From Xiphias gladius (taxonomy: Eukaryota; Chordata; Actinopteri; Istiophoriformes; Xiphiidae): DNA of 64,000 nucleotides. The DNA is taken from contig NC_053402.1 in the NCBI RefSeq assembly GCF_016859285.1, positions 7,473,531 through 7,537,530 of the forward strand, in the 5' to 3' direction. The notes under the pieces were generated by a model. That model was not told the DNA's origin and did not search any database. It worked only from the letters and a program-made list of their open reading frames with translations. Positions 34,542-61,800 of the stretch are shown one piece after another (position 1 is the first letter of the stretch; every line of letters starts with the position of its first letter). The translations under genes were made by a program, and so were the position numbers.

Positions 34542-37096
34542 ATGAATATGTCCTTTCTATCTGAGAAGCACAAATCCCATTTCCCCCTCCTCCTACTCAT
34601 CTATGTCCCTCTCACCTGTCTATGCCAGACAACCAACGCCAGCTCAACCATACCCACAATGAACACCCCAACCACTTCCTCTCTATTCTCAAATGTTACT
34701 TCACTGAAGGGTGTGCCAGGCTGCGGCACAGGACTGCACCCCATCTATAGGTACCTGTGTGACCGCCGGGCAGCATGGGGGATTGTATTGGAGACCTTGG
34801 CCTCTTCAGGCTTCCTGTTCAGCATGATTCTCCTCTTTGGCCTGCTGCTCTGGTCCCTTTGGATCTGTATCTCATCCCAGCACCAACGCAGTAGTATTGG
34901 AGGCACAGTGGCCTGCATGTCCATGTTCTTGTTGGCCACAGCAGGGATCTTCGCCACCACTTTCTCCTTCATCATCCATCTCACCCCTCAGACCTGCACC
35001 ACCAGAATCTTCCTCTTCAGCGTGCTGTTCTCCCTGGCCTTCTCCTGCCTGCTGGCTCGCTGCCTTGCCCTGCTGGGCTTCGCTGCTGCCCGGGGCTGGG
35101 GAGAGCCTGCCCTTGCCCTGGGTCTCTTCACTGTGCAGGTTATCATCTCCACAGAGTGGCTGATCCTTGTGTTGGTTCGGGACAAGACGCCTTGCGAGTA
35201 CAGCCAGGAGGAATTTGTCATGCTGCAGATCTATGTCCTGTGCCTCCTGGCTATCAGCTTGATCCTCTCCCTGCACTTCCTGTGCCGCTCCTGCTCCACA
35301 TACAGCTACAGCTACACAGGGCCCACCAACCAGCAGGGGAGGGTACAGGCCATTGTCCTCTGCCTCACACTGCTGCTGTCCACCTGCATCTGGGTGGTGT
35401 GGATCACTATGCTCACCAGGGGAAACCCTGAGGTGGGCCGCCGGCCACAATGGGACGACCCACTGCTTAGCATTGCATTGGTGGCCAATGGCTGGGTGTT
35501 ACTGATGGGGCACGGGTTGTCCCAGGTTGCCTTCCTCTGCAGGGGAGAAGCCAAGTCCAAGGATAGCCCTTTGAGCTTCGCCGGCTGGACCAGCCCCAGT
35601 GCTGATATCCCAGGACTGGGCAGCCAGAAGGAGGGAAAAGAAAACAGAAGCTTTGAGACTGATGGTGAGAACAGAAGAGGTGAGAAGCTGTCCTCATTAG
35701 CCATATATTGAGTGAAGCTTAATTGAAAGATTGTGAATTATTCTTAGGACTAAACTAGACAAGGGACAAAAAATAATTGTGGCTGCAACTAACAATTATT
35801 TGAATATAAATTAATCTGCCAATTAATTTTTTGAGGAATAAACTGTTTTGGTCTACAAAATGTCAGAAAACAAAATCCCTGTCACACATCTGAGAATCCA
35901 AGGTGACTTCTTTACATTGATTGTTTTGGCCAAACAACAGTACGCAACCAAAGATATTCAGTTTACTATCATAAAGGATGAAGGACTAAAACCAGTAATA
36001 TTTACATTAAAAAAATTTTTTTTAATGGTTTAAATGATTAATTGATTCTGGAAATAGTTACAGATGAATTTTCTGTTGATCAACCAGTCAATTCATCAAG
36101 TCATTGTTTCAGCTCTAAAAGTAACAACATCTCATCAAAAGGAGCTTTTTAATGTCAATAATGTTAGCTGTAAATACTACCGCAATGATGACAAATGTAA
36201 TGTAATAGGAGTATAACTTGTCTTGTAGCATTTTTTCTACCAAGTCAATGATATTAAAGTCAGACTACAAAACTTTTTCTGAATAACAGCTACAGTGGCC
36301 ACAAGTGACAATAAAGGAATGATGGTAAATGACAAAACAGTAGCACAGAAGTAGAGTATAGCAATAGCACAATTTGAGAAGAGCCAGGCACTTAGCAGGA
36401 CTCTAACGTCACATGCACAGCAATATCTATCTAGTTTGCTAATTTTAGCTAATGTTAGCTGCCATAAGCTAGTGGTCATGCCAGACCAAGTAAGGCATAA
36501 TAGCAAAACCTCTGAGTATATCATATTGAACAAGGCTGTGTTTTACTGCTTATAAATTCAGCATTTACAGCAATTCCAGATTCACTGAATGACATTCTGT
36601 CTATTAAAATATAACAGTAAGCCAAAATGAATATGGAGCCTGTGTCCAACTTCAAAAAATGAATTTGGCTATCAGTCAGCTCAGCTCTCACTGTGGGCCT
36701 ATATGATGAACAGAATATAATGAACCAATAATTAGCTAACTGTATCACATGTCTCCCTTAGGCAGGAGAACTGAGCCAACACTGCGGTCACCGTATGAGT
36801 CTGGATTCTCCATGACAGTGAGTAATAAACCATTAGGATTAACAATCTGACTCCACATACTGCGCAATTAAGCACCGTGACCTTTTACTACTGGAGGCAA
36901 TTATAGCTAAGTTATATGGTAAGGTTGATGAAAGCGCAGTTTATCATTGGTATTAATTGCAGTGACATGATGAATGCGTGATTAGATGTTTCTGTGTGTG
37001 TTTCAGGAAATCGACCCTGACAAAGATTACACCATTCCTCGCCCTCAGACCACCAACTACCGGGAACCTTATGATGAATATTATGGACATGACTAA
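34542..37096 (+). CDS. GPRC5-family orphan seven-transmembrane receptor, 3 coding exons
   Basis: Class C group 5 (retinoic acid-inducible type) orphan receptor of the plasma membrane. Coding exons are 34542-35679, 36762-36817 and 37007-37096, with GT-AG introns; 1284 nt, 427 aa. Signal peptide about 13-28; N-glycosylation sites at Asn32 and Asn51. A short ectodomain ends in the family motif GCGTGLHPIYRYLCD (60-74) before WGIVLE. Seven helices lie at about 80-109, 122-146, 155-180, 189-211, 225-248, 268-291 and 307-331. FSCLLA, STEWLI, WVVWI and PQWDDP are GPRC5 signatures. The ectodomain is too short for a ligand-binding Venus flytrap. The tail carries SPYESGFSMT and a tyrosine-rich last exon (YTIPRPQ...YDEYYGHD) resembling GPRC5A more than B or C, while the loop before TM7 is GPRC5D-like. 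Member assignment is left open; human GPRC5A/D lie on 12p near MGP/PDE6H. ATG at 34542 follows the acceptor; an ATG two codons on is also possible. Confidence 0.93.
35779..36116. mobile_element. MITE-like element in GPRC5 intron
   Basis: A left end 'ggctgcaactaacaattattt' and a right end whose complement reads AGAGCTGAAAC give degenerate inverted termini. The interior holds 'ggtctacaaaatgtcagaaaa' and 'caaagatattcagtttacta', which are landmarks of a very abundant fish element. About 338 bp, with no coding capacity. Confidence 0.75.
36120..36750. other. Intron 2 remainder of the GPRC5 gene
   Basis: AT-rich intronic sequence after the MITE. No extra exon is supported. Confidence 0.5.
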
Positions 37097-47320: not shown

Positions 47321-50300
47321 AGTAGTTATTTCACACCCATGCAGCATGCAGAGGAAATACAACTTCCATCATTAAGCTCCACAACTGCAACCAAAAACAT
47401 TAAACAATAAGGTCACGTGGCTAATAGATAAAGTTCACTGTACTGAAATGAGACCATAAACTGGTATTGTTCCCCAGCTACAGGAAAATCAAGGCAGCAA
47501 AGGCCAGTTTGAATGGATCATTTTATGAGGACATAATGTCTGAGACGTGTAGTTTTCAGTGGAGCAGATATGGAGGGGGTATTTCCTGCATCCCCAAATT
47601 TCACCTTGTTTAGCTTGATTTGATTGTCATCACAGTAAGCAACCACAAGGCCATTAACCAATCAATTTTGCTTTGATCTGAATATCACAGCAGTCATAAC
47701 CCCATTAGCCAATCATCATAGCACAGCAACAACATGCACAGACCACGTACTGAAGGGACAAAAAACTACATCACAGTAAATGTGAATAATTTGTAGCAAA
47801 TCTGTGAGCAGGATGACTGTTTCTGCATAATGAATGAATGTGATTTGTGTGTGTTTATGCAAATCTGCTGATGGTGGTATCTATCTGTTTATTCAAATGA
47901 ACCTTCAATGGTGCAATCCCATCAGTGTGTTATACTCCACTGAATAGCTTGTGAACTGACTGCCAATGTGCCAGCTGGACTGCTGGAGAGAGTGAAGTGT
48001 GAATAATGTTTGAACATGAGAAGTGTATTAGCACAGCTGTATTAAACAGGACCTGGTCAAATAGATTCTGAAAATGGCATTCATGAGGTGTTTCTGAAAA
48101 GATTTAACAGGCACTAAACAAAACAACTGACACTACCCGTTTTATTTCTGTTTTCTATACACACAAATATCTGGGCTACAAAGTATGTGAAGTCAACAGC
48201 TCTTGTTTCAAAGCAGTCTATATTTCTTACCCTGGGTAGGCAGGGATGGCAGGCTGAGGCACAGCAGCCCGCACAGCACTGTAGACAGGCCGGCCACGAC
48301 CCCTAAGATGGGCACCACGAAATGCTGCTGCTGCTGTCGTGGCTGCTGCTGCTGCTGAAGGGTAGGGAAACCCTGGGACTGGAGGAGGAAGAGGAGAAGG
48401 AGGACCAAAAGGGTAAAGAAGGAGGTGTAGAATAGGAGAGATAGGTTTAGTGACAGCAAAATGCAATTTGAGTGCAAAAATGTGGGGAGGCCCAGGATAA
48501 ATTAAGGAGCAAAGAGAGAAAGGAATAATCCAACTATAGCCTTAAGAGCTTGATATAACTAAAAGTGTCAGTGAGGAGAAATGCTAGACAAGCAGTGCAT
48601 TAATGGGGATTGAAGATTGGAATGTGACTAAAACTTAAAATAGGCTGTGGAGAGAGTTTTTAGTGTGGGTGAAGGAGATGGAGGCTAGCCTTACCTGCGT
48701 AGAGCTCTGGTCCGTACACGGCCCCCACCATGGGGCTCAATTTCCACCCCGCTGACAGTCACACAGAGAGAAAGGAGGGGGCAAAGATTGAATAGGGGCA
48801 GTTTACAAAGAACGTGGGCTCTTATATGCCTGCTTGAACATGTTTTATATACAGATATATTTTATATACATATTTCTCTACACCATTAGTCATTCTGTTA
48901 TTCACCTTTATTGGTGGCATTCATGGTTCACTAGGTACTTTAAGACCAGTTCTATTGTCTTATACTGGATATCAGGACACAAAAGGAGAAATAAGTGAAA
49001 TGTCAAGCACCGCTGAGTAGTGTTTTTTTAAAAATGATTGTAATGCCTGCTTCTGTTGAGGCTGTTTCACTGACCTTATTTTCATAAGACAGATTCCCTG
49101 TGAAACTCAAAACCAAACGGGAGGATGTAATGGAAGAGCACATGAAACAAACAGAAAATGCTGCTCCACTCTTGCCTTCAATCAACTGAACCTGCTACAC
49201 TGGCACCACGAGGTGAGGCATCCTGGAAGCAGCATAGACACTGGATTCAGGGCCTGGTTTTCAGCTGATTCTCAAAGCAACCCTGGCTCCTATTCATATA
49301 TATTTTCCCTTTTATTTAATCAAGCTAACTTTGTTACATGATCCTTTAGAGAAAGATTATTTTTGTCAGAACACTTCTGTCTGTGTCATTCCTTCTTTTT
49401 CTTCCTGCATGCTGTCGAGTTGATCTGGAGAAAGTGAGCTTAATTTTAAAGTCAGCTAACATCATTGCTGGTAAGTGAAAAATTACAAAACTAAAATAGC
49501 CTGCATGAATTTGGTTCGCGGATGGCCTTACAGAATGTGGTGTGGAACAGAGCCCACAGGGAGGGAACACTGTGGCTATGTTTTGCAATTTACCCCTGCT
49601 AACATCTGCCTCCCCGTGTACCTATGTTGTGTGGATTATTAGGGTGCGCCACAGTTCATTGTTAGTGTGTGTCAGTTTTGTTCGTTACCATAAGGCAGTG
49701 TGCTGAGAGCCTCTCCGTTGGGGTAAGGGCTGACCATTTTCTTGTTAGTCATCACCCTGGCAGTGGCGTTATTCACCTGGGGATGGAGGAGCAGACAGTC
49801 AAAGAAACAGACAATAATTCGGCAGAGGAAACTAAAGCAGCACACAGACTAAAACAAAGATTACTAGATCACAAGGCCAAGGCTGATATTGGTTTATGTT
49901 TTATTTTTTACAGTAGAATTAAATTCAAAATGCCTGCTGTAATGTGCTGCTATTATGCTTGCCTCCATTTTTTGTACATCTTTATATTTAATTTGAGGAG
50001 AACGCTGATGTAATCTGATGTTATGGCCCATTTACTTGAATCAACATCTAGTTTACATTTCCTCCAATCATTCTGCCGTATGTAATTAGTCTGTAACATA
50101 ACCTCATTTTTATTGTTAAGCTGCACACTTGACAAGGCTGGCAAGTGTGCAACTTGTCAAGGCTGGCTTAAAGCTAGCTGCTGACCCGCCAACAACATGG
50201 ATGTGACAAAGCACCAACATGATCTTGATTTTTTCTGGTAAAGAATTCGGTTTCTCTCTGTTGATGTTGTGTTTAAAATACTGCACGTGCTTATACAATA

Positions 50301-52185
50301 AATCTATATCTGCAGAATAAAAAAAGATCAAACATAACCAATATGAAATGCAAAAGTCACTGGTGTTGTATTTAACCTATGTGATCAGTTTGGAAGAATT
50401 TTACTCTTGACAAGTCCACTAACTCTTGCAAAAATGTGTGCATTTATGTTGGCGTGCATGTCCATGTTTGTGTGTAAAAGTGGGTGGGGACTGTTAAGGG
50501 GATTTTTAGTCATCATGCAATTAGAAGTGAGTTGCCCAGGAGAGATTTGGCGATTCACTGTGGATAGATATGAGGGCTGCCATGGGCGACACTGGTTATG
50601 TTGCTGCTGTGACTACAAATGAAGGGGGGTGGGGGCACAGCAATGGAAACTGAGCTGTACTTTTTTTTTTTTGGCATGCACAGGTCAAAGTATTGTTGAT
50701 TTCTTTTGAGGTGTGTGTGCATGTTCTGTGCATGCTGTCTGACATTTCAGACTAATGCTTAGGCCTTTCAATCCAAGATGGCTGCTAATCTTCTCTCTGA
50801 GCTTCAAAGGCTCATACGCCGGTCCCTTGATCTATCCTCATCTTCCTTTGATGGGCTTTAAGAGAAGGCGAATGTAGCTCTCCGTAATAACCCATACTGT
50901 CCAAGTGTGCTGTTGAAGCTCCACATCTGACTGTGTGACAAGCTTAAGATTAATGACCTTTTGGCTAGATGAGGGGAGAGTGTGCATACGTGTGTGCGAT
51001 AAAGGAGGGAGAGAAAGACTGAGGAATGAGAGTGCTTGTGTGTACATTCCCGCAGCACTCCCATTTAAAAGACCATTAAGTCCTAGACTGACCATTCGCA
51101 TTGCCTCTCTCAGTGAGTCATGTTCTTTATCTGCCGAGCTTCATTCAGATGGAAATGAAGTTTAACTCATTTTTCTCTCATGGCAAATGATGAAAAGGCA
51201 AGGTCAGAGGCAAACAATTCAAATAGCCTAGCTTAGGTGTCTTAGTGGAGACATTTTGAAATGTAAATCAAGTTAATGAATCAAATTAATGTCCACATTT
51301 TTTTGTATCACAGTGAAAATTTGTCCAGACTTGTGAGAAGTTTAATGTTGAATAGTAACACTTAATGATAATGAAGAGTTTAGCCTTTATCAATAGTGGG
51401 CAATCAGCTGTGTTTTACAGTATATGCACGTCTTTGTGTAATGCACAATTAATGAAATTGGGTAAACGGTTGACAGGAACACATGCAAATCAACAGAGAC
51501 CAAAACGGAAGGCAAATCTCAAAGTGTCAATGATTAATAAAACATTCAGTCTTTCTCCTCCCACTTTTGCCCTCCCAGTCCAGCCTGAACAATAAACCTG
51601 GGCAAAATGAAGTCACATTTCCATATGAAACCAAACTTGTGGGGTTTACATACCTAAAAAGAAATATTTAAAATAAATACAAGGGAGAGGGAGAGAAAGG
51701 GGGGGGTGCAAAAACATTTGTTTGACAAAATTAATAATCATTTAACACAGAAATTACACGCAGCCAAATATGGGCGCATCACATGACCAAGACCCAAAAA
51801 AAAGTAAAAATTCAGCCAATCAGCAAGCGTTGGATGCAGCATAGAGACCAATCAAAACAATCGCAGCACTCCCACATCGAACACATACGAGACAAAGATG
51901 GGACAGGTAAGTTAAGAGGAAGGGATGCAGGTGAGAAGTAAAGAGACAGAGCCAGTCCATATACAAAAACAGGAGAACGTAAAGATGGAGTGAAGAGAAA
52001 GAGAAAAAAAGGGAGAAAGTTTACATGAGCAACACAAAAAACTAATAACAATTACTGTTTAAAACATTTATACCAAGGTGCATCATTCAAATAAAGCAAT
52101 TAGATTTGGTGACCATTCTCCTAGAAATCTCATTATATGTGGTGGGTTGAGAAACAGAGCACCAAAGGATGGAGGGAACAGAGAG

Positions 52186-52248
<63 letters not shown>

Positions 52249-55200
52249 AATCCTCATTCCCAAAAAAGGAAAGAAATAAAATAAACATGAGACACTATGC
52301 AAGGCATTAGAACTGTGTCACAAACTAAGACCAGTACACTAAGACTACAACTACTACTAAAACTACTAATACACAGACAATCCACTACAAGAAAACCAAA
52401 CCAAAAGAGAAAAACAAAATGGCAGCATAATAGAGACCCAAAAACACAGCGAGGTAAACCCCATAACGGTTTAGAGATGCATATGGTGACAACACTGGGC
52501 CTGTGTCCAAAATCACTCCCTGACTCACTCATTCCCTACTCCCTATATAACAGACACTAAATAATTTACTCAGTAGTGAGCAGCAAATTGGGATTTCAGA
52601 CACTTACTTATTATTATTTTGCATTATCACTGTCAGCTGTTGAGCTGTGCAACAGTAATTTTTACCATTTATACAATGTGGCGCATTGCATTGGGGATTG
52701 TTAGCAGAAAGAACTATATATGTCATGGGCACTACTTTTTTCAATTCATTGTAGAAATTTTGAAATTTTCACTCAGAATTTGGACATTCAAATAAAATGG
52801 CAGTGGGTAATTGTAAGGCACTATATAGTAAATGGGTAGTGATTTGGGACACAGCCTGGCTGACTTGATAAGTGATCAGCCAGTTGCACCAGCAGTTCGT
52901 AAGTTCAAACTTAGCCTAGTTCAAACCTAAGTGTCTAAGTGGAGTTTTACACATCACTGAATTAAAACAAACTATTTCTTACCTAGAGTTTGGTTGTTAC
53001 TAAATATTTAAACCCACTAACGGGGTGTAAAGAATAACTGATGTTTTAGCTAACTGAACCAACTGACAAAGCTAACTTAGTAAATGAGTAAATTATGTTT
53101 GGTTACCATAATTGGATATTTCCCCACTGAATGGGAAAATATCATTCCCCACTAAACTTTATGAACACTACTAACACTGAAAAACACATTTGTATGTACA
53201 CAGGCATATATGAAACAATGTCACTTTTGGAAGTTATGTTGGCTTGTGATGCTACAGTGACTTCCTGTTTACATAGGTGATTGCTCTTGATTGTACAGCA
53301 CTATATGTGATTCAAAAACAACCAATTTACACATTCCCAAAGTTTTTACAAGCTAAGATATTTCTTAAGAGTGCAAACGAATTTAGTAAATGACTTGTTT
53401 GAAACTAGCTAGTAGTTACTAAGAACTTAGGAAGAACATTACATTCTAACTTAGTCATGAATTTATGAATAGCTGGTGCAACCCAATCCAGATCTTCAAC
53501 AGCATGGTTTCTAAACATGTTTTTATTTTTACATGAATTAACAAAAGATCCCCAATGAACAGTTCCAGTTTATTTTTAATGGCAAGACACAGTGTGCTAG
53601 TCTATGTATGGACATTTGGAGGGTCTCTGTCTTGACAGGCAGGAGTGTTAGGGCATTTTTCAAATGCACATCATGTCCAATTGGCTAACATTTGACAAAG
53701 TACACTATGCTAAAAGAAGGCAGGCCAGTGAAATAAAGAAATTCAAAACCAGAGCAGCGTTATTTGCCCTGCAGCTCGGGGTCTGCATTCACTCAAAGCA
53801 ATCGTAGGCAGCAACAGGGAGCAAAGCTTCATATCATTTCTGCTGCTTTCAATTAATTAGGAAGAAGAAAACTATATACATTGAGTCTAATGGAGAATTA
53901 ATCATACGGACTGTAGATAGGCGTGTGATTGCACAGAGGAGGGTGATTACATTCGGTCATTCCCAGTGAGGTGTTAATGATATGGTGGGGGACGGACATG
54001 TGGAGAAAATATTCCTGCTAAAAGATGAAAATGTGTTGAAAGATACTGTATCCATCTGTCTGTGTGCCTGTGGTACTGTGTTGTGCACTGTAAAATTACG
54101 TAATACCAATAGCTTTCTAGGGCATTACACTGCGTGGGCCTACGATTATTACATTTGGTAAATAGAAATGCAAAGAATAATCTAACTTCACAGTATATTG
54201 TACATAATACTGTATCAAAGGCCCATTTCAGGAGTGGGGTGGGAAGGGGATCAGTTCAGTGATAGATGTTTGTACACAACTTACCGTTGCCGTAGAAACA
54301 GCGAGTGGTTACCGTGGAGACTGACAACAACACACAGAAGTCGTCAGGGAAACAGAAAAAATATAATAAATAAAGGAACAAATAATCCTAGTAACAAAAG
54401 AAACCTAAATGCCCCCCCTTATTGCCCCATGTGAAATAAAAACCTGATAGCAGCAGTGTTACAGCTCAGAACAGAATATAAGAGAAAGAAGAAAGAGGAG
54501 GAAAGGGGAGAGAGGATGCTAGCTCTCAATGCTTAACAGAGCTCTGAGCATCATTAAAACAATCAGACCAGTGACAGGAAGGTATTTGGTGCTCTAGAGA
54601 ACAAAAGACATGGTACAGGAGAATGGAGATATGGGGCAACCTTGCCTTAACCCCTAAAAATTAGCCTATTGAATGTACAGTACAGTGAGGGACTTAAATG
54701 CAGCAAATTTAAACACCTCCAAGGAAAAGTCAGAAGAGCAGATAAAAATGCACACCACCCTCCACCATAGGAGCAGAATAGCAAAGGTTGCTTTAATGCT
54801 GTCTGGGTCTATTCCAGTAAAAGGAGAGAGGTATTTTGGCTAGATTTTGCAAGAAATTACTCATTCTTGCGTGGTACAGTTAGGCCACAAGAGAAGTGTG
54901 TGTGTGGTAATGGTTATGGGTAGAGTGGCTATAATTTCCAGTTTTTACCAGTCACCACAAAACATACTGAAGGACAGTCAAACAATAAACATAAGACAGG
55001 AAACTGAATACAGATGGAAATATGTGGAAACACAATAAGGCAGACAGAGATGGTGGCAATAAAAGAATATTAAAGTTAGAAAAAAAAAAAGCTATGGATA
55101 ATTTTCAAATTAAATACTAAATGACGTAAAGACAAACTTGACTGGCAACGAGAGAAGGAAGGGATAAGGAAGAGAAGAATGGAGCCAACACACAAAGAAA

Positions 55201-58200
55201 GAGGGTTAGAAAGGGCAAAGTACAAACTCTCTTTCCCCTTTTCTTTCAGTCTTATCTACATTTTCACTCATGTACAATGCAAACGCATACTCGCACATTT
55301 TATTAATTAATTTTTTCTGGGGCAAAGCATGCAGTAACAGAAAGCTCTGATAATAAAACAAAACAGGAGTGGTAAAATCCAAAGCAGTAGGGAGGCTGTA
55401 GGGGTTCATCTATGAAACCTGGACACAGTGGGGAGGCTGTAGGGGTTCATCTATGAAACCTGGACACAAGGAGCTGGTAATCCTTCGCTTCAGGCCATCG
55501 CCAATTCAACAACTCAAAATTAAGTTCTTCTTAATTCAGACTTTCACAATAACAATGCATAAAAATCACAATAAAGCATAAAATCTTCCAAAAATTTCAT
55601 AATGTTGTGAAAATTATTGGTACAAGGCCCAGGCCAAAATGAGTTGAAGGCCAGCTGTGTCCCATTGAGGAGTTTGTGGCAGCAGCATTGGTTGGTGAGT
55701 GTGCATGGTCAGGCATGCAGAACCACAGGCACAACTTCTACTCATCCTTTTTACCACATCCATGCAGTGATGATGACAATCATAACACAATAAGCCCCCC
55801 ACCCACCCCCTGCATGCAGAGCTGCACCACTTTTGACACACAAACAGATAACTCAGCTATTCTGCACTATTGTGTTGAAATGTCTGACTAAAACTCTGCG
55901 CTGCGGAGGAGCTGTGACTTCCCATAACACTCCATCCACACAGATCAACCATAAACACACAACCTTGGAGCAGTAGTTAGTGAATGGGAGTCTTAAGGTT
56001 TCTGCATGACCTCTGTGTGAGTGCCATCTCCTCTGCAGTCATGTGAGCACTGTCTGCAACTACTGACTGCTCTCTTCCTTACAGGAGTTGCCATTGCCCT
56101 TCCTCACTGTAGTTTACAATGTGGACAAATCTACAGCAAGCACACCAGAGAGCAGCACAGAAGACTGATGGAAAACTAAGGAAACCTGCAGATTCTTTTG
56201 CACAATGCTGATTGTATATAAAACCTGCATTCACTACAGTCTCTTTATTTTGAAATGTAGAGAACTTAATCTTGAAAGCCTGGCATTCCTCAGAGAGGAA
56301 ACAGTTAAAATAAATTTACTAAAATAATTTAGCCAGCATACACCTTGCTGTTTTACATATGTCCTTTTGGACCTTTCACCTATTGAGAAACAAATAAATA
56401 TTGAGAAGAAATATTGTTCTGTATGACCAGCATAAACTTCATGATTTTTGATCAAGGTTTGCAGCTGCGCAAATGAGACCATGCAGGGACCTTAATACAC
56501 TTCCTGTACAGTCAATAATTATGCCATTGAATGGTTTGAAGAGAATTTTCTATCTGTAGCTTTGTAGGGTGTCCTACAGTCAAAGTAACACAAGTCAATG
56601 ACAGCAGACATATGTTATGAGTGAAGACTGCTTAACCCATTTATGTTAGAGCATACACACAGTCACAGGGACAGCCATGGGCGGGTGGAGATGCTTTGAG
56701 GTGTGTATGTTTGTGAGTAAGATACACAATGTCACACCTATATATAGGCCTATAGGACTCTATATATAGAATTAATGGTGATGAGATGAGATCACAGAAA
56801 AGCAGGTATAGACAAAGTGAACTGTAGTTGGGCCACTTACATGGATACATTGGAAGCGCACAGGAAACTGACTTCTTCAAAGCGCAGAGTTTTATTCCAG
56901 ACAAAGAAAAGTACAGTATAACTTTAAGCACAATAATTCTCTTTCTATTTCATATAGGCTACATACATGGGCAGCTAAGCTATTCTATGAGAATAACTAC
57001 TAACTAACTCCCATTGGCATGCACCAAGAATAAGAAATGTCAGTACTTAAGGACAGCAAACTTTTAAAAAAAGATTCAGTCAAAAATTATTCTAAGGATT
57101 CAGCTATTCAGTCTCTTTTCAGTGACGCACTCAGGTGCAACTGATTTCATGCTAACTGAACAAGTCCCATCACCAAAACTAACAAAATAGCCGTACAGAA
57201 TAAACATGCAAGAAAAAACATCCAGCTTTCTGCAAGAAAAAACATCCAGCTGGGCTACATATTTCCATATTAAAATACCAACCATGCACACTTAAGCTAC
57301 ATCAACTAATTCCATGCCATTTGATAGCAGTGAACCACAGAATCACACACAATAAAGTTAAAATATTTATGTATAATAATGGTATACAGTAGGCCTATAT
57401 TTCAGAGTTTCTGAATGATAATACAAATAAATGATTACTATGGTTATCTTTTGCCATCTTCATCTCTGAAAATATAGTTCAACAAACTCTGAAATCATAT
57501 GACCAATTTAAGCAAGAGTTGCTCCAGCAACATCTGCAAGGAGGGAGAACTGCCAGAGAGCATTGCCCAATATAGAAATGTCCAGCCCTTTCTCCTTGGT
57601 TCAAAGAATGTATAAACACAAATCCACAGTTTGTCCTGCGCCAGCCTTTTTTCTGTTCAAGCCCATGCACCATAAACAGACAGAGAGAAACACACACTAC
57701 AGAGTCTTGCTGCTGGCCCACCATGCTGCTAATATATGACCTGCTACAGCCCAACACCACTACTGGAATACAACAGAGTACATGCAAATTGACAACTGAA
57801 AACAAAGACAAACTGCTCGCTGATTAATAAAAGTGACTGATATCATGCAAAACTCGGTGAGAAACACAGAATCAGATTAAAGCAATATCAAGGACAACAC
57901 AGGTTTTTGACTGATGCAGGTTACGTTGGCTCCATCAGTATCCATTCAGCTTGCTGATTGACTTAGGGTGGAGGTATGGAGTATATTGTAACAGTAGATA
58001 AAGGTATCTGTCTTTCATTCTCAACCACACTGCAGCAGAACTGAGAGTACAGAACTAAAAAGGGTCCAGCCAGCCTTATCCATCATGCAAGATCTGACTC
58101 ACACACACCCACACACACACACACGACAAGGAAATCCCCACAGTAAGCCCATGCAGAAATCTTGGCTTACAGTGGTTTGGGTCAGGAGATCCAATATGGA

Positions 58201-58769
58201 CAACTGGCTGATTGAAACCCCGATTACATTAAAGAAGAAAAACTGCTTTCAAAAACTCAGCACATGCTTGCGTTACTAATAAAAATAATATTTAATCAAA
58301 TCAAAAGTAAATTACCTTAAAACACACAGACTTACAGATATAAGAAGTCAAGTGGACAGATCTTTCGTAAGAATCCAGACTTCCATAAAGTGAACATGCT
58401 TCAGTGTTGCTGTGATTCTCAGCATGCTGCTGTTGCACCAGGAGCCATAAGCTTGTCACAACCACTTAGCCAAAACACCGGGAGAGGGGAACACAGAAGG
58501 ATTTCTAACCCAGGGAAGAAAATAAGAGCATCTGACGGCAATCTGCCATGCATCATCCTTTCACTGCGTTCCTCTCGTGCCCTCCGGTGCAAGCTACACA
58601 CGTCATTCCAATTGTTGCAGAAAAAGTTGTAACATCAGTCTGGCTATAAGTTGCGCATCAATGGAAAAAAAAGGTGAAGAGGCAACAGCTTAACATGAAA
58701 AAAAATGCTGCAGAGGAAAAGTACCCAGCATGCCTTTTGTAGTGTTCTTGCACCCCCAATCATTCCCAC

Positions 58770-58803
<34 letters not shown>

Positions 58804-61800
58804 AAGGAACAAGTCTTTTTAAATCTAAAAATGAAACACATTGCAGAGGACCAGGGTGTGGAATACCAGTGGGCTGCATCAGAGCATATCACTAAAGGGA
58901 GGATGGGAGCTAGCTAGCAGTCAGTGATCAAGCAGAATTACAATGAGAATACAGACAGAAGACAGAAGAGAAGAAAAGATAGAGAGAGAGAGAGAGAGAG
59001 GAAAGTTACCTCAATTTTACGACCTTCCACCAATGTGCCATGGAGCTTTTCCCTGGCTTTCTCTGCATCTGTGCTGTTCTCAAATGTCACAAAGCCAAAA
59101 CCCTGTGGTACACAGCAGAGGTTAAAGAGGTTGGTGGTGAGTGAGGGGCACATCAGGAGAGAGGAAAGGGAGAAGAGAGAATCTGTAAATCCTTAGATCT
59201 TGAGGTGCATTCTGACATTGTTTAATAGATAACTGAGGTTTCAGAAAAATGTCCAAAACATCTCCAATGTGGCTTGACAATACCATGTCACAAAGAGTCA
59301 CCGGAAAAAAATATGCATGACGGGAATAATTGTCGACAGTCAGGGAGAACTGTAGTGTTTCAAAAAAACCAAATGGTGTCTGTGCACTTACCTTTGAACC
59401 CCTCTCGTTGAAAATAATCTCTACATCCAGTATCTTCCCAAATTGCTGCAAATAAATTCGAGAAGAGAAATTAGCAAAAAAAATATAACCAAAGAACTAA
59501 ATCATATACAATTTTGACTTGTCTCAGGTTTGGTTTAGATTGCAGTCTTGTGGGATGGATTTACTGCAAAGTCAGAAGCTTGTGTGAATTGCAACTACGT
59601 TGCACCAGGGGTCACTGTTATACAAAAGACAACTTCACACATTTCAGTGTGCTTCTGTCGGTCCATTTGCTTGAACTGTGCTTTGCACCCTTTTTCCCTC
59701 TCACTACATCACTCATACTAACATCCTGACACACATAGCAGCCAATTGCCCCTCTCAAGCACCAAGAAAACACCCATGAGTGTCTTTCCTTTGTGTTACT
59801 CTTTGTCTGTCTCTACACCCCACTCCTAGTGAGGCAGCCCCTCTGCCAAAGACCCAGGGTGTCTAGACTGATTTATTGATCTTATTAAAAATGAGGCCCC
59901 ACAACATTCCCAGCTTCTTACCCCAAACATCTGCCTGAGATCTGGGTCCCGGAAACGGAAGGGGATGTTTGAGACATGGAGGCGTTTGGGGGTCCCTTTG
60001 GCCTCTTGGGAGTCTCCTGCAGAGCCTCCTACTCCTGTGCCTCCTGTACCGCACTGTACACCTGCCTCACCCTGGGATGTCTCATCTGTCTTTCCCTGTG
60101 TGGGAGAGAGAAAAGAAGATGAGTTGAGGAAGGTTAGAGAAGTAGAAATGGCTTATGATCATAATTTCAGCAAAGTAAGCGCTCTGCTACACCTCTTATT
60201 TTAGATGTAACCCAAATGGAAACACACAGAGTTGATGAGTACAAGATGCAGAAAACCTGTTGTGTGCAGTCTTGATATCATCATCATCATGCATTAGAAA
60301 TAAACATTATAATGTCAGCTGCATCTTAAATGAAATATGATTACCGCATTTACGATAAATAACAACACTAAGACTCTATAGCAGGGGTCTCCAACATGTC
60401 GCTGGCAAGCCGCCAGTTGCTCACTCCCTGTTTTAGAGTAGCCCGCCCAAAGGTTCAGATAATACAGTATGTAAAAACTATGGATGCATAGTACAAACAT
60501 TAAGCAACACAATTTCACTCAGTAAATCTGCTACAAATGCAATCAAATCAAATACACAGACCTCTCCAACACAAAATAATTATTTGTTAAACACTCAGTC
60601 AAATGAGTTGCGCTGCTGTCAAGTTTATTTACCTCAGGTATGCCATAGGCGACATGCAGTGTTAGCAACTCTTTTGGATAATGATACACTAAACATTAAA
60701 AGTCTTCATTTATATGAACAGATATAAACTAAACTTTTACAAGAAAACAGGAAACATGTTGTCATGGATTACATTTTGGAAAATTAGGTATGCCTAATTA
60801 GCTATTATAAGTTCCTGTTTGCTATGTACCATTGGATGTACTGACAGCCATCACTGGATTACTTTGATACTAAAGAAAACCAAAACGCAACAATTCCCAG
60901 GCAAGTTCTGGAGTTATAAGGAGCTTCTTAAGCACATTTATGGACATTTACTTGCAATGGGCATTGGGCATAATTGTATTTTCAGAGAGTGTAAGTGACA
61001 CTGTCTGTGTGTTCAGGTTTGACTGGAGTATGACTCCAATTTTTTGACACAGAAATTGACACTGATATGATGTCTGATTTAAGTTTAAGATGTTTTTGGT
61101 AAACAATGTGAGTTTTGGATATTGATATTTGATAACTGCTTACAAAAAAAATGTACTTATTCAGCTGGTTTGGTTTGGATATTAGTTTGAGTGTTTTTAT
61201 ACGATATGTGAATAAATGTAATTAGTAATATAAGACATGACTAGTTCTCATCTTGTCAAAGTAGCTCTCAAAGGAAAAAAGGTTGGAGACCCCTGCTCTA
61301 CAGCCATGCTAACGGCTCTTAGAAGCTGCATTTTAGGTACAGTGCTGCTTTGAGCTAAACGCTAACGTTAGAACGCTAACAGGCTCACAGTGACACTGAC
61401 ATAATGCTCATGTTTAGCAAGTATATTGTTTACCATGTTCACCATCTCAGTTGAATGTATTAGCATGCCGATATTGATAATTAGCACTAAGGTTGAGGAC
61501 AAAGGGAGCACCAAAGTCATTAGGATTCATCCTATAGGACCATGAATGGCAGTACAAATTCTGTGCAATGCATCTAATAGATGCTGAGATATTTCAGTCT
61601 GGACCAAAGTGGTTGATGGGTTTATGACTGTTATCAATAGTCTAGCACTACATGTGAAAGTTTATTTACAAAAAATAATAAAAATCCTTTAGTCCCTTCA
61701 CAAGTTCAAAACATTAAGATACTATAATGAGAAAAACAACAGTGGGGATGATTTTTTTCCCATAAAATACAGTATGTCTATAATTATCATGTAAAAGGAC

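Follow-up and report, generated by a model that had tools for sequence, protein, structure and literature searches.

Dense cluster of RBFOX-binding words in the intron after the 93-nt RRM exon of a fish rbfox2-type gene

Introduction

When an RBFOX gene carries a dense group of RBFOX-binding words directly after its own RRM exon, does that group serve as a platform for self-regulation and, if so, with which sign? The question is raised here by a fish rbfox2-type gene with fourteen TGCATG hexamers packed into 3,225 nt of the intron that follows its 93-nt RRM exon. RBFOX proteins regulate splicing in brain, muscle and heart, and their self-control via the RRM exon is reported as repression in mammals. 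Damianov and Black reportedly described in 2010 how RBFOX proteins regulate the 93-nt RRM exon in their own and in each other's transcripts.

PMC3126832 reports repression by Rbfox3, in mouse and human cells, of Rbfox2 exon 6 (the 93-nt RRM exon); Rbfox3 also raises a 71/74-nt poison exon, 6*, associated with NMD, in the following intron of mammalian Rbfox2. PMC5577181 points to potential RBFOX sites in the vicinity of regulated exons of rat Rbfox2, and zebrafish rbfox1l/rbfox2 double mutants have been described (PMC9534849). By the position rule given in PMC4541041, RBFOX sites downstream of a cassette exon favor inclusion and upstream sites favor skipping. Deep-intronic sites can also matter: according to PMC12435732, RBFOX1 control of Ntrk2 isoforms needs tight (T)GCATG clusters at distances of up to 25 kb, mammalian (T)GCATG clusters are rich in motifs of hnRNP M, a LASR partner, and the mouse genome holds 21,005 such clusters, with peaks on them in only 20–25% of RBFOX-bound genes. 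Going by titles and abstract starts, none of the literature matches listed dealt with RBFOX sites clustered behind the 93-nt exon in fish rbfox2, which is weak evidence of novelty.

Results

An rbfox2-type gene and its RRM exons

The window, that is, the whole 64-kb stretch that was analyzed, corresponds to C3:7473531-7537530 in a genome of 690.8 Mb and 1,298 contigs, in which seven Fox-1_C matches mark RBFOX loci at six places; the genome size and this number of loci are in line with a teleost fish. Judged by its sequence, the minus-strand gene of the window is an RBFOX gene of rbfox2 type. Its RRM is identical to that of human RBFOX1 (PDB 4zka) at 81 of 85 residues and also matches an RBFOX2 structure and Pfam RRM_1, and a Fox-1 C-terminal domain (PF12414) lies downstream in the gene, within the window, at C3:7521757-7521909. 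Given this near-identity to the human RBFOX1 RRM, the encoded domain should be able to read UGCAUG. The rbfox2 assignment is our own, from C-terminal exons that appear RBFOX2-like beside human sequences, by comparison of residues.

The first RRM exon (59922..60095, minus strand; about 174 nt, with ends placed to fit AG and GT) and a 54-nt RRM exon read from the sequence (59392..59445, minus) are followed by the 93-nt RRM exon (59010..59102, minus), which was identified by RRM match to the RBFOX1 and RBFOX2 structures. The latter has the 3′ splice site ...TGTACCACAG and the 5′ splice site GAG/GTAACT, which has no G at +5 and appears weak by eye. The intron after it (49777..59009, minus; 9,233 nt) contains 17 sense and 6 antisense TGCATG. 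The preliminary description of this DNA had placed the cluster in an RBFOX gene, in the intron that follows its RRM exon, and both placements proved correct.

The next coding exon (49689..49776, minus) apparently has 88 nt (61 + 27) by sequence reading, and we take it to be the counterpart of the exon that is 61 nt long in mammalian RBFOX genes. The apparent 27-nt extension is found in this exon and in its counterpart in the second rbfox2 copy of the genome, on C15; one of the two reads ...NG EGLAALPYG. Elsewhere in the window, an open frame on the plus strand (34542-35708) encodes a class C seven-transmembrane domain (Pfam 7tm_3) and presumably resembles a GPRC5-type orphan receptor.

Number, position and strand of the sites

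The cluster (55328..58552, minus) holds 14 TGCATG and 20 GCATG on the transcribed strand by exact count. On the plus strand, the hexamers read CATGCA at 55328, 55714, 55761, 55813, 56480, 57018, 57205, 57283, 57664, 57781, 57844, 58084, 58150 and 58547, and TGCATG occurs within the same interval three times, at 55702, 55811 and 56003, so the earlier tally of fourteen against about three was exact. Over the whole window, TGCATG occurs 49 times on the minus and 32 times on the plus strand. The cluster starts 458 nt after the 93-nt exon and spans 458–3,677 nt downstream of it; only one of the 14 hexamers lies within 750 nt of the exon, most being distal.

The unequal strand density that had been claimed is borne out, at 14:3 for TGCATG (two-sided binomial P = 0.013) and 20:6 for GCATG (P = 0.009), with P values that are post hoc because the interval was picked for its sense sites. 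Such a bias fits recognition of RNA and not of DNA. By the published definition of a (T)GCATG cluster (at least four GCATG in 500 nt), the transcribed strand carries an extended cluster of 16 sites at 57018-58733 and a four-site cluster at 55328-55817. The antisense strand of the window has three clusters by this definition, one of which overlaps 55328-58552, and two of 30 strand-stretches of random DNA from the genome hold one.

Pentamers of hnRNP M are enriched in the cluster, with 137 on the sense strand compared to 69.5 ± 29.6 in 99 control windows (3% of which reach 137) and 39 on the antisense strand. Motifs of hnRNP H and hnRNP C showed no enrichment in the cluster, nor was there any sign of it for the secondary words GCACG (0), GAATG (4) and GCATT (2), given here as raw counts in the interval.

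Density against background

The density of the cluster was compared with several backgrounds. Dinucleotide shuffles of the cluster gave 2.85 ± 1.63 TGCATG (maximum 11 in 2,000 shuffles), and the best 3,225 nt anywhere in the shuffled 64-kb window held 4.9 on average (maximum 9 in 200 shuffles). When 491 hexamers with 30–70 occurrences on the sense strand were ranked by their densest 3,225-nt stretch, TGCATG came first. Random DNA of the genome, taken as 15 stretches of 10 kb and read on both strands, gave 82 non-overlapping N-free windows of 3,225 nt, with a mean of 1.31 TGCATG per window, a variance of 1.97, a maximum of 6 among the 82 windows and a sliding maximum of 8. Sixteen non-RBFOX loci, some overlapping, averaged 0.91 per 3,225 nt (maximum 3), and in five stretches with other RBFOX genes no 3,225 nt held more than 5 on either strand.

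The cluster is thus an outlier in every control, for an interval chosen post hoc. The excess over chance asserted at the outset is confirmed, whereas the chance expectation of about 0.8 then attached to it was low beside the 1.31 of random DNA and the 2.85 of shuffles. Poisson odds were set aside as too generous, since the background is over-dispersed. A negative binomial fitted to 113 windows (some overlapping, RBFOX paralogues included) yielded about 3e-7 for at least 14 sites in a given window, and 1e-4 to 6e-4 under more dispersed assumptions.

The sequence contexts of the 14 sites are unrelated, with no duplicated unit. The repeats that turned up in 55000-59010 were one pair each of 41 and 21 nt, two weak families of two copies (74% alike), three inverted pairs, all imperfect, and one poly-A run. 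A genome search with the cluster stretch found the whole stretch once and seven short matches elsewhere at 74–94%. Tandem duplication or a transposon as the source of the sites is ruled out by the repeat analysis together with the single-copy genome search; varied contexts in single-copy DNA indicate that the sites were not copied together.

Comparison with the other RBFOX genes of the genome

The paralogue names used here (rbfox1, rbfox3-like, rbfox1l and second rbfox2) are our assignments by resemblance. The intron after the 93-nt exon measures 9,233 nt in the window gene, 4,057 nt in the second rbfox2 copy (C15), 6,856 nt in rbfox1 (C3, 4.75 Mb), 867 nt in one rbfox3-like gene (C3, 23.7 Mb), 3,793 nt in the other (C9) and 99 nt in rbfox1l (C22). 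Sense/antisense TGCATG counts in these introns are 17/6, 2/1, 3/3, 3/3, 3/1 and 0/0, respectively, and the low counts of the paralogues mark the large cluster as special to the window gene. The preliminary description had named lack of conservation in orthologues as a refuting result; within this genome, conservation at the DNA level fails between the two rbfox2 copies, whose introns hold 17 and 2 sense TGCATG, and the common feature is a smaller proximal enrichment of GCATG. For the C15 copy, conservation of the cluster as DNA since duplication is ruled out by its two sense TGCATG in 4,057 nt and the lack of an alignment, and the comparison thus gives no sign of selection on the large cluster. 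The word GCATGCTGGGT stands near the proximal sites of both rbfox2 copies and is too short to count as conservation.

The proximal enrichment is shared more widely. Each of the five RBFOX genes whose post-93 intron exceeds 800 nt, namely the window gene and four of its paralogues, carries one or more sense GCATG in the 300 nt that follow the exon. Over 750 nt, the window gene, the C15 copy, rbfox1 and the rbfox3-like genes on C3 and C9 have 5, 5, 2, 5 and 2, respectively, for a sum of 19 compared to 3.1 expected, or 14 without the window gene. A count of at least 14 in the latter four genes has a frequency of 3e-6 in random DNA and 5e-7 in other RBFOX-gene sense sequence, both from overlapping-window draws. 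The 750-nt cut-off was picked after seeing the data; sizes from 300 to 1,500 nt agree, with sums of 7, 13, 21 and 26 at 300, 500, 1,000 and 1,500 nt against 1.2, 2.1, 4.0 and 5.7 expected. On the antisense strand, too, GCATG is raised over these 750 nt (2, 1, 0, 5 and 1 in the same gene order, 9 altogether), in part because GCATGC is palindromic, and one rbfox3-like gene has 5 sense and 5 antisense.

Upstream of the exon, the same five genes carry 0, 0, 5, 0 and 0 sense GCATG in 750 nt and 1, 0, 6, 3 and 1 in 1,500 nt, and within 1 kb neither rbfox2 copy has any. Near upstream sites are thus found only in rbfox1 (exon C3:4757849-4757950, minus), in which TGCATG starts 37 and 9 nt before the 93-nt exon, the latter running into the AG, and a further TGCATG overlaps the 5′ splice site GAG/GTGCATGT. 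Judged by sequence, RBFOX bound in this arrangement would be able to mask the 3′ and the 5′ splice site alike. In rbfox1l (C22:18364121-18364240), the 93-nt exon has the consensus 5′ splice site GAG/GTAAGT and is followed by a 99-nt intron with no RBFOX site, from which its RRM exon may be constitutive.

Two conserved intronic blocks

Alignment of the two rbfox2 introns revealed two well-aligned blocks, both outside the cluster; up to E = 0.1, the introns otherwise matched at a poly-T run and, weakly, over 73 nt next to block 2 (E = 0.016). Block 2 (51747..51885, minus) is 75% identical over 141 columns with the C15 copy and contains ATTGG (CCAAT) boxes. No splice signals were seen in it by eye, and it could be an internal promoter or enhancer.

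Block 1 (54235..54378, minus) is 72% identical to the C15 rbfox2 intron over 166 aligned columns, and in a genome search its matches are limited to the two rbfox2 copies. It contains a putative 36-nt poison microexon (54285..54320, minus), which reads ...TTGTTGTCAG/TCTCCACGGTAA...GGCAACG/GTAAGTTGTGTACA and has a 48-nt counterpart in the C15 copy (C15:18443125-18443288 region). In frame with the 93-nt exon, the putative microexon would encode Ser-Pro-Arg-stop (TAA) in both copies. In the C15 intron, GTAAGT occurs once, as the 5′ splice site of this putative exon; four occur in the window intron. The pyrimidine tract of its 3′ splice site is interrupted by G and falls below a simple threshold of 14 pyrimidines in 20 in both copies; an alternative 3′ splice site with a better tract lies outside the conserved block and, with the same 5′ splice site, would give a 103-nt exon. 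Block 1 also overlaps two RFX X-box-like motifs with one mismatch each, in both copies, and from its sequence it looks like either a putative 36/48-nt poison microexon or an RFX-site element. The distance from the 93-nt exon to the putative microexon is 4,689 nt in the window gene versus 966 nt in the C15 copy, and the nearest GCATG in the window gene is 1,012 nt from it.

Discussion

With the gene, its exon, the sites and their positions, density and strand, the single-copy DNA and the five-gene proximal enrichment established here, we read the cluster, most simply, as an RNA-level RBFOX platform, an extended RBFOX/LASR-type enhancer of the 93-nt exon that favors the full-length form, and give this reading a probability of about 45%. 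The platform would extend a proximal group of downstream sites also seen in the other long-intron RBFOX genes of the same fish. RBFOX would bind the UGCAUG and GCAUG words that lie about 0.28–3.7 kb beyond the exon, where the GU-rich sequence is of a type that hnRNP M, a LASR partner, recognizes, and the assembly may act as an intronic splicing enhancer that helps define the 5′ splice site GAG/GTAACT with its missing +5 G. A rise in RBFOX activity would then be predicted to yield more full-length, RNA-binding protein, with the 93-nt exon as the presumed responder, and the resulting loop would be positive, unlike mammalian repression. Counting against this reading are the absence of the large cluster from the C15 copy, the distal position of most of the hexamers, one sense site of the window gene between 1 and 1.5 kb upstream of the exon, the three antisense clusters of the window, the ordinary hnRNP H and hnRNP C motifs, the raised antisense GCATG in the proximal 750 nt and the repression of the exon by Rbfox3 in mammals. 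A feedback platform is plausible from the sequence, the strong loop foreseen in the preliminary description is an inference, and by the position rule the sign of any RBFOX feedback here probably differs from the mammalian one. The mammalian precedent invoked in the preliminary description therefore carries over in part: RBFOX regulation of the exon is indeed reported, but as repression (PMC3126832), whereas downstream sites favor inclusion.

A competing account, in which the sites built up by drift in DNA free of constraint, or are bound by RBFOX to no effect, in an intron whose size differs between copies, seems to us somewhat unlikely. The region cannot be aligned with the C15 copy and its sites are not conserved, and (T)GCATG clusters are widespread in mammals, with 21,005 in mouse and peaks on them in only 20–25% of RBFOX-bound genes (PMC12435732); yet none of the 82 random windows and none of the shuffles reaches the observed density, the unrelated contexts make a single duplication insufficient, and both the strand bias and the recurrence of proximal enrichment across paralogues speak against mere accumulation. 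A DNA-level element, with the words recognized by a DNA-binding factor as part of an intronic enhancer, could draw on the X-box-like and ATTGG motifs of the conserved blocks in the same intron, but those blocks lie outside a cluster that is itself unconserved and strand-biased, and we regard this as very improbable.

Other accounts keep RBFOX on the cluster and change its target or its sign. The platform might act mainly on the putative poison microexon at 54285-54320, 1.0–4.2 kb further downstream and a possible fish counterpart of 6*, so that the RBFOX level would set the share of transcripts going to NMD; from sites lying upstream of it, RBFOX would suppress the microexon, although a looping mode could reverse this. 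A splice-like block kept in both rbfox2 copies and nowhere else in the genome, the in-frame TAA in both, a 5′ splice site that is the only GTAAGT of the C15 intron (against four in the window intron) and the effect of Rbfox3 on the 71/74-nt poison exon of the same mammalian intron (PMC3126832) argue for it. Against it stand the subthreshold 3′ splice site tract in both copies, the two X-box-like motifs that could by themselves explain the conservation of the block and the 1,012 nt to the nearest GCATG, and we consider it doubtful. Mammalian-type negative feedback, with RBFOX on the cluster causing skipping of the 93-nt exon and a dominant-negative protein, appears improbable: it would agree with the repression of Rbfox2 exon 6 by Rbfox3 in mouse and human cells (PMC3126832) and with the rbfox1 sites of this fish at both splice sites of the exon, which are fit for repression, but both rbfox2 copies are free of sense sites for 1 kb upstream of the exon, and the cluster is on the side associated with inclusion (PMC4541041).

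The enhancer reading of the cluster can be carried one step further, to a proposal that we hold as speculative and rather unlikely. The sign of RBFOX self-regulation may be split between paralogues, with repressive sites at the splice sites in rbfox1 and downstream arrays in the rbfox2 copies through which inclusion of the RRM exon would rise with RBFOX, perhaps with the microexon held down. If true, a positive, switch-like loop would stand in place of the mammalian negative one, with the array greatly expanded in one rbfox2 copy. With an array of 14 sites on the inclusion side, and a paralogue whose sites lie at the splice sites, the gene would allow a direct test of a flip in feedback sign after duplication while the RNA-binding domain stayed nearly unchanged. 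The cluster is also a natural case in which to ask whether a large number of distal sites can work together as a single RBFOX/LASR platform.

Comparison with known systems

The locus can be set beside three known systems. Like exon 6* of mammalian Rbfox2 (PMC3126832), the putative microexon would be a small, stop-bringing exon in the post-93 intron of Rbfox2; it differs in having 36/48 nt and an internal in-frame stop, whereas 6* has 74/71 nt and brings stops in the next exon. With the RBFOX/LASR clusters exemplified by mouse Ntrk2 (PMC12435732), the window cluster shares a density beyond four sites in 500 nt, a 16-site extended cluster, enriched GU-rich hnRNP M motifs and an intronic position hundreds to thousands of nucleotides from the nearest cassette exon. 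It departs from them in lying within rbfox2 itself, after the gene's own RRM exon, and in its unenriched hnRNP H motifs. Mammalian autoregulation of the 93-nt exon, finally, involves the same gene family, the same exon and the family's own binding word adjoining it. There, skipping gives a dominant-negative form; in the fish rbfox2 genes, near sites are found downstream only, and the opposite sign is accordingly what we would predict.
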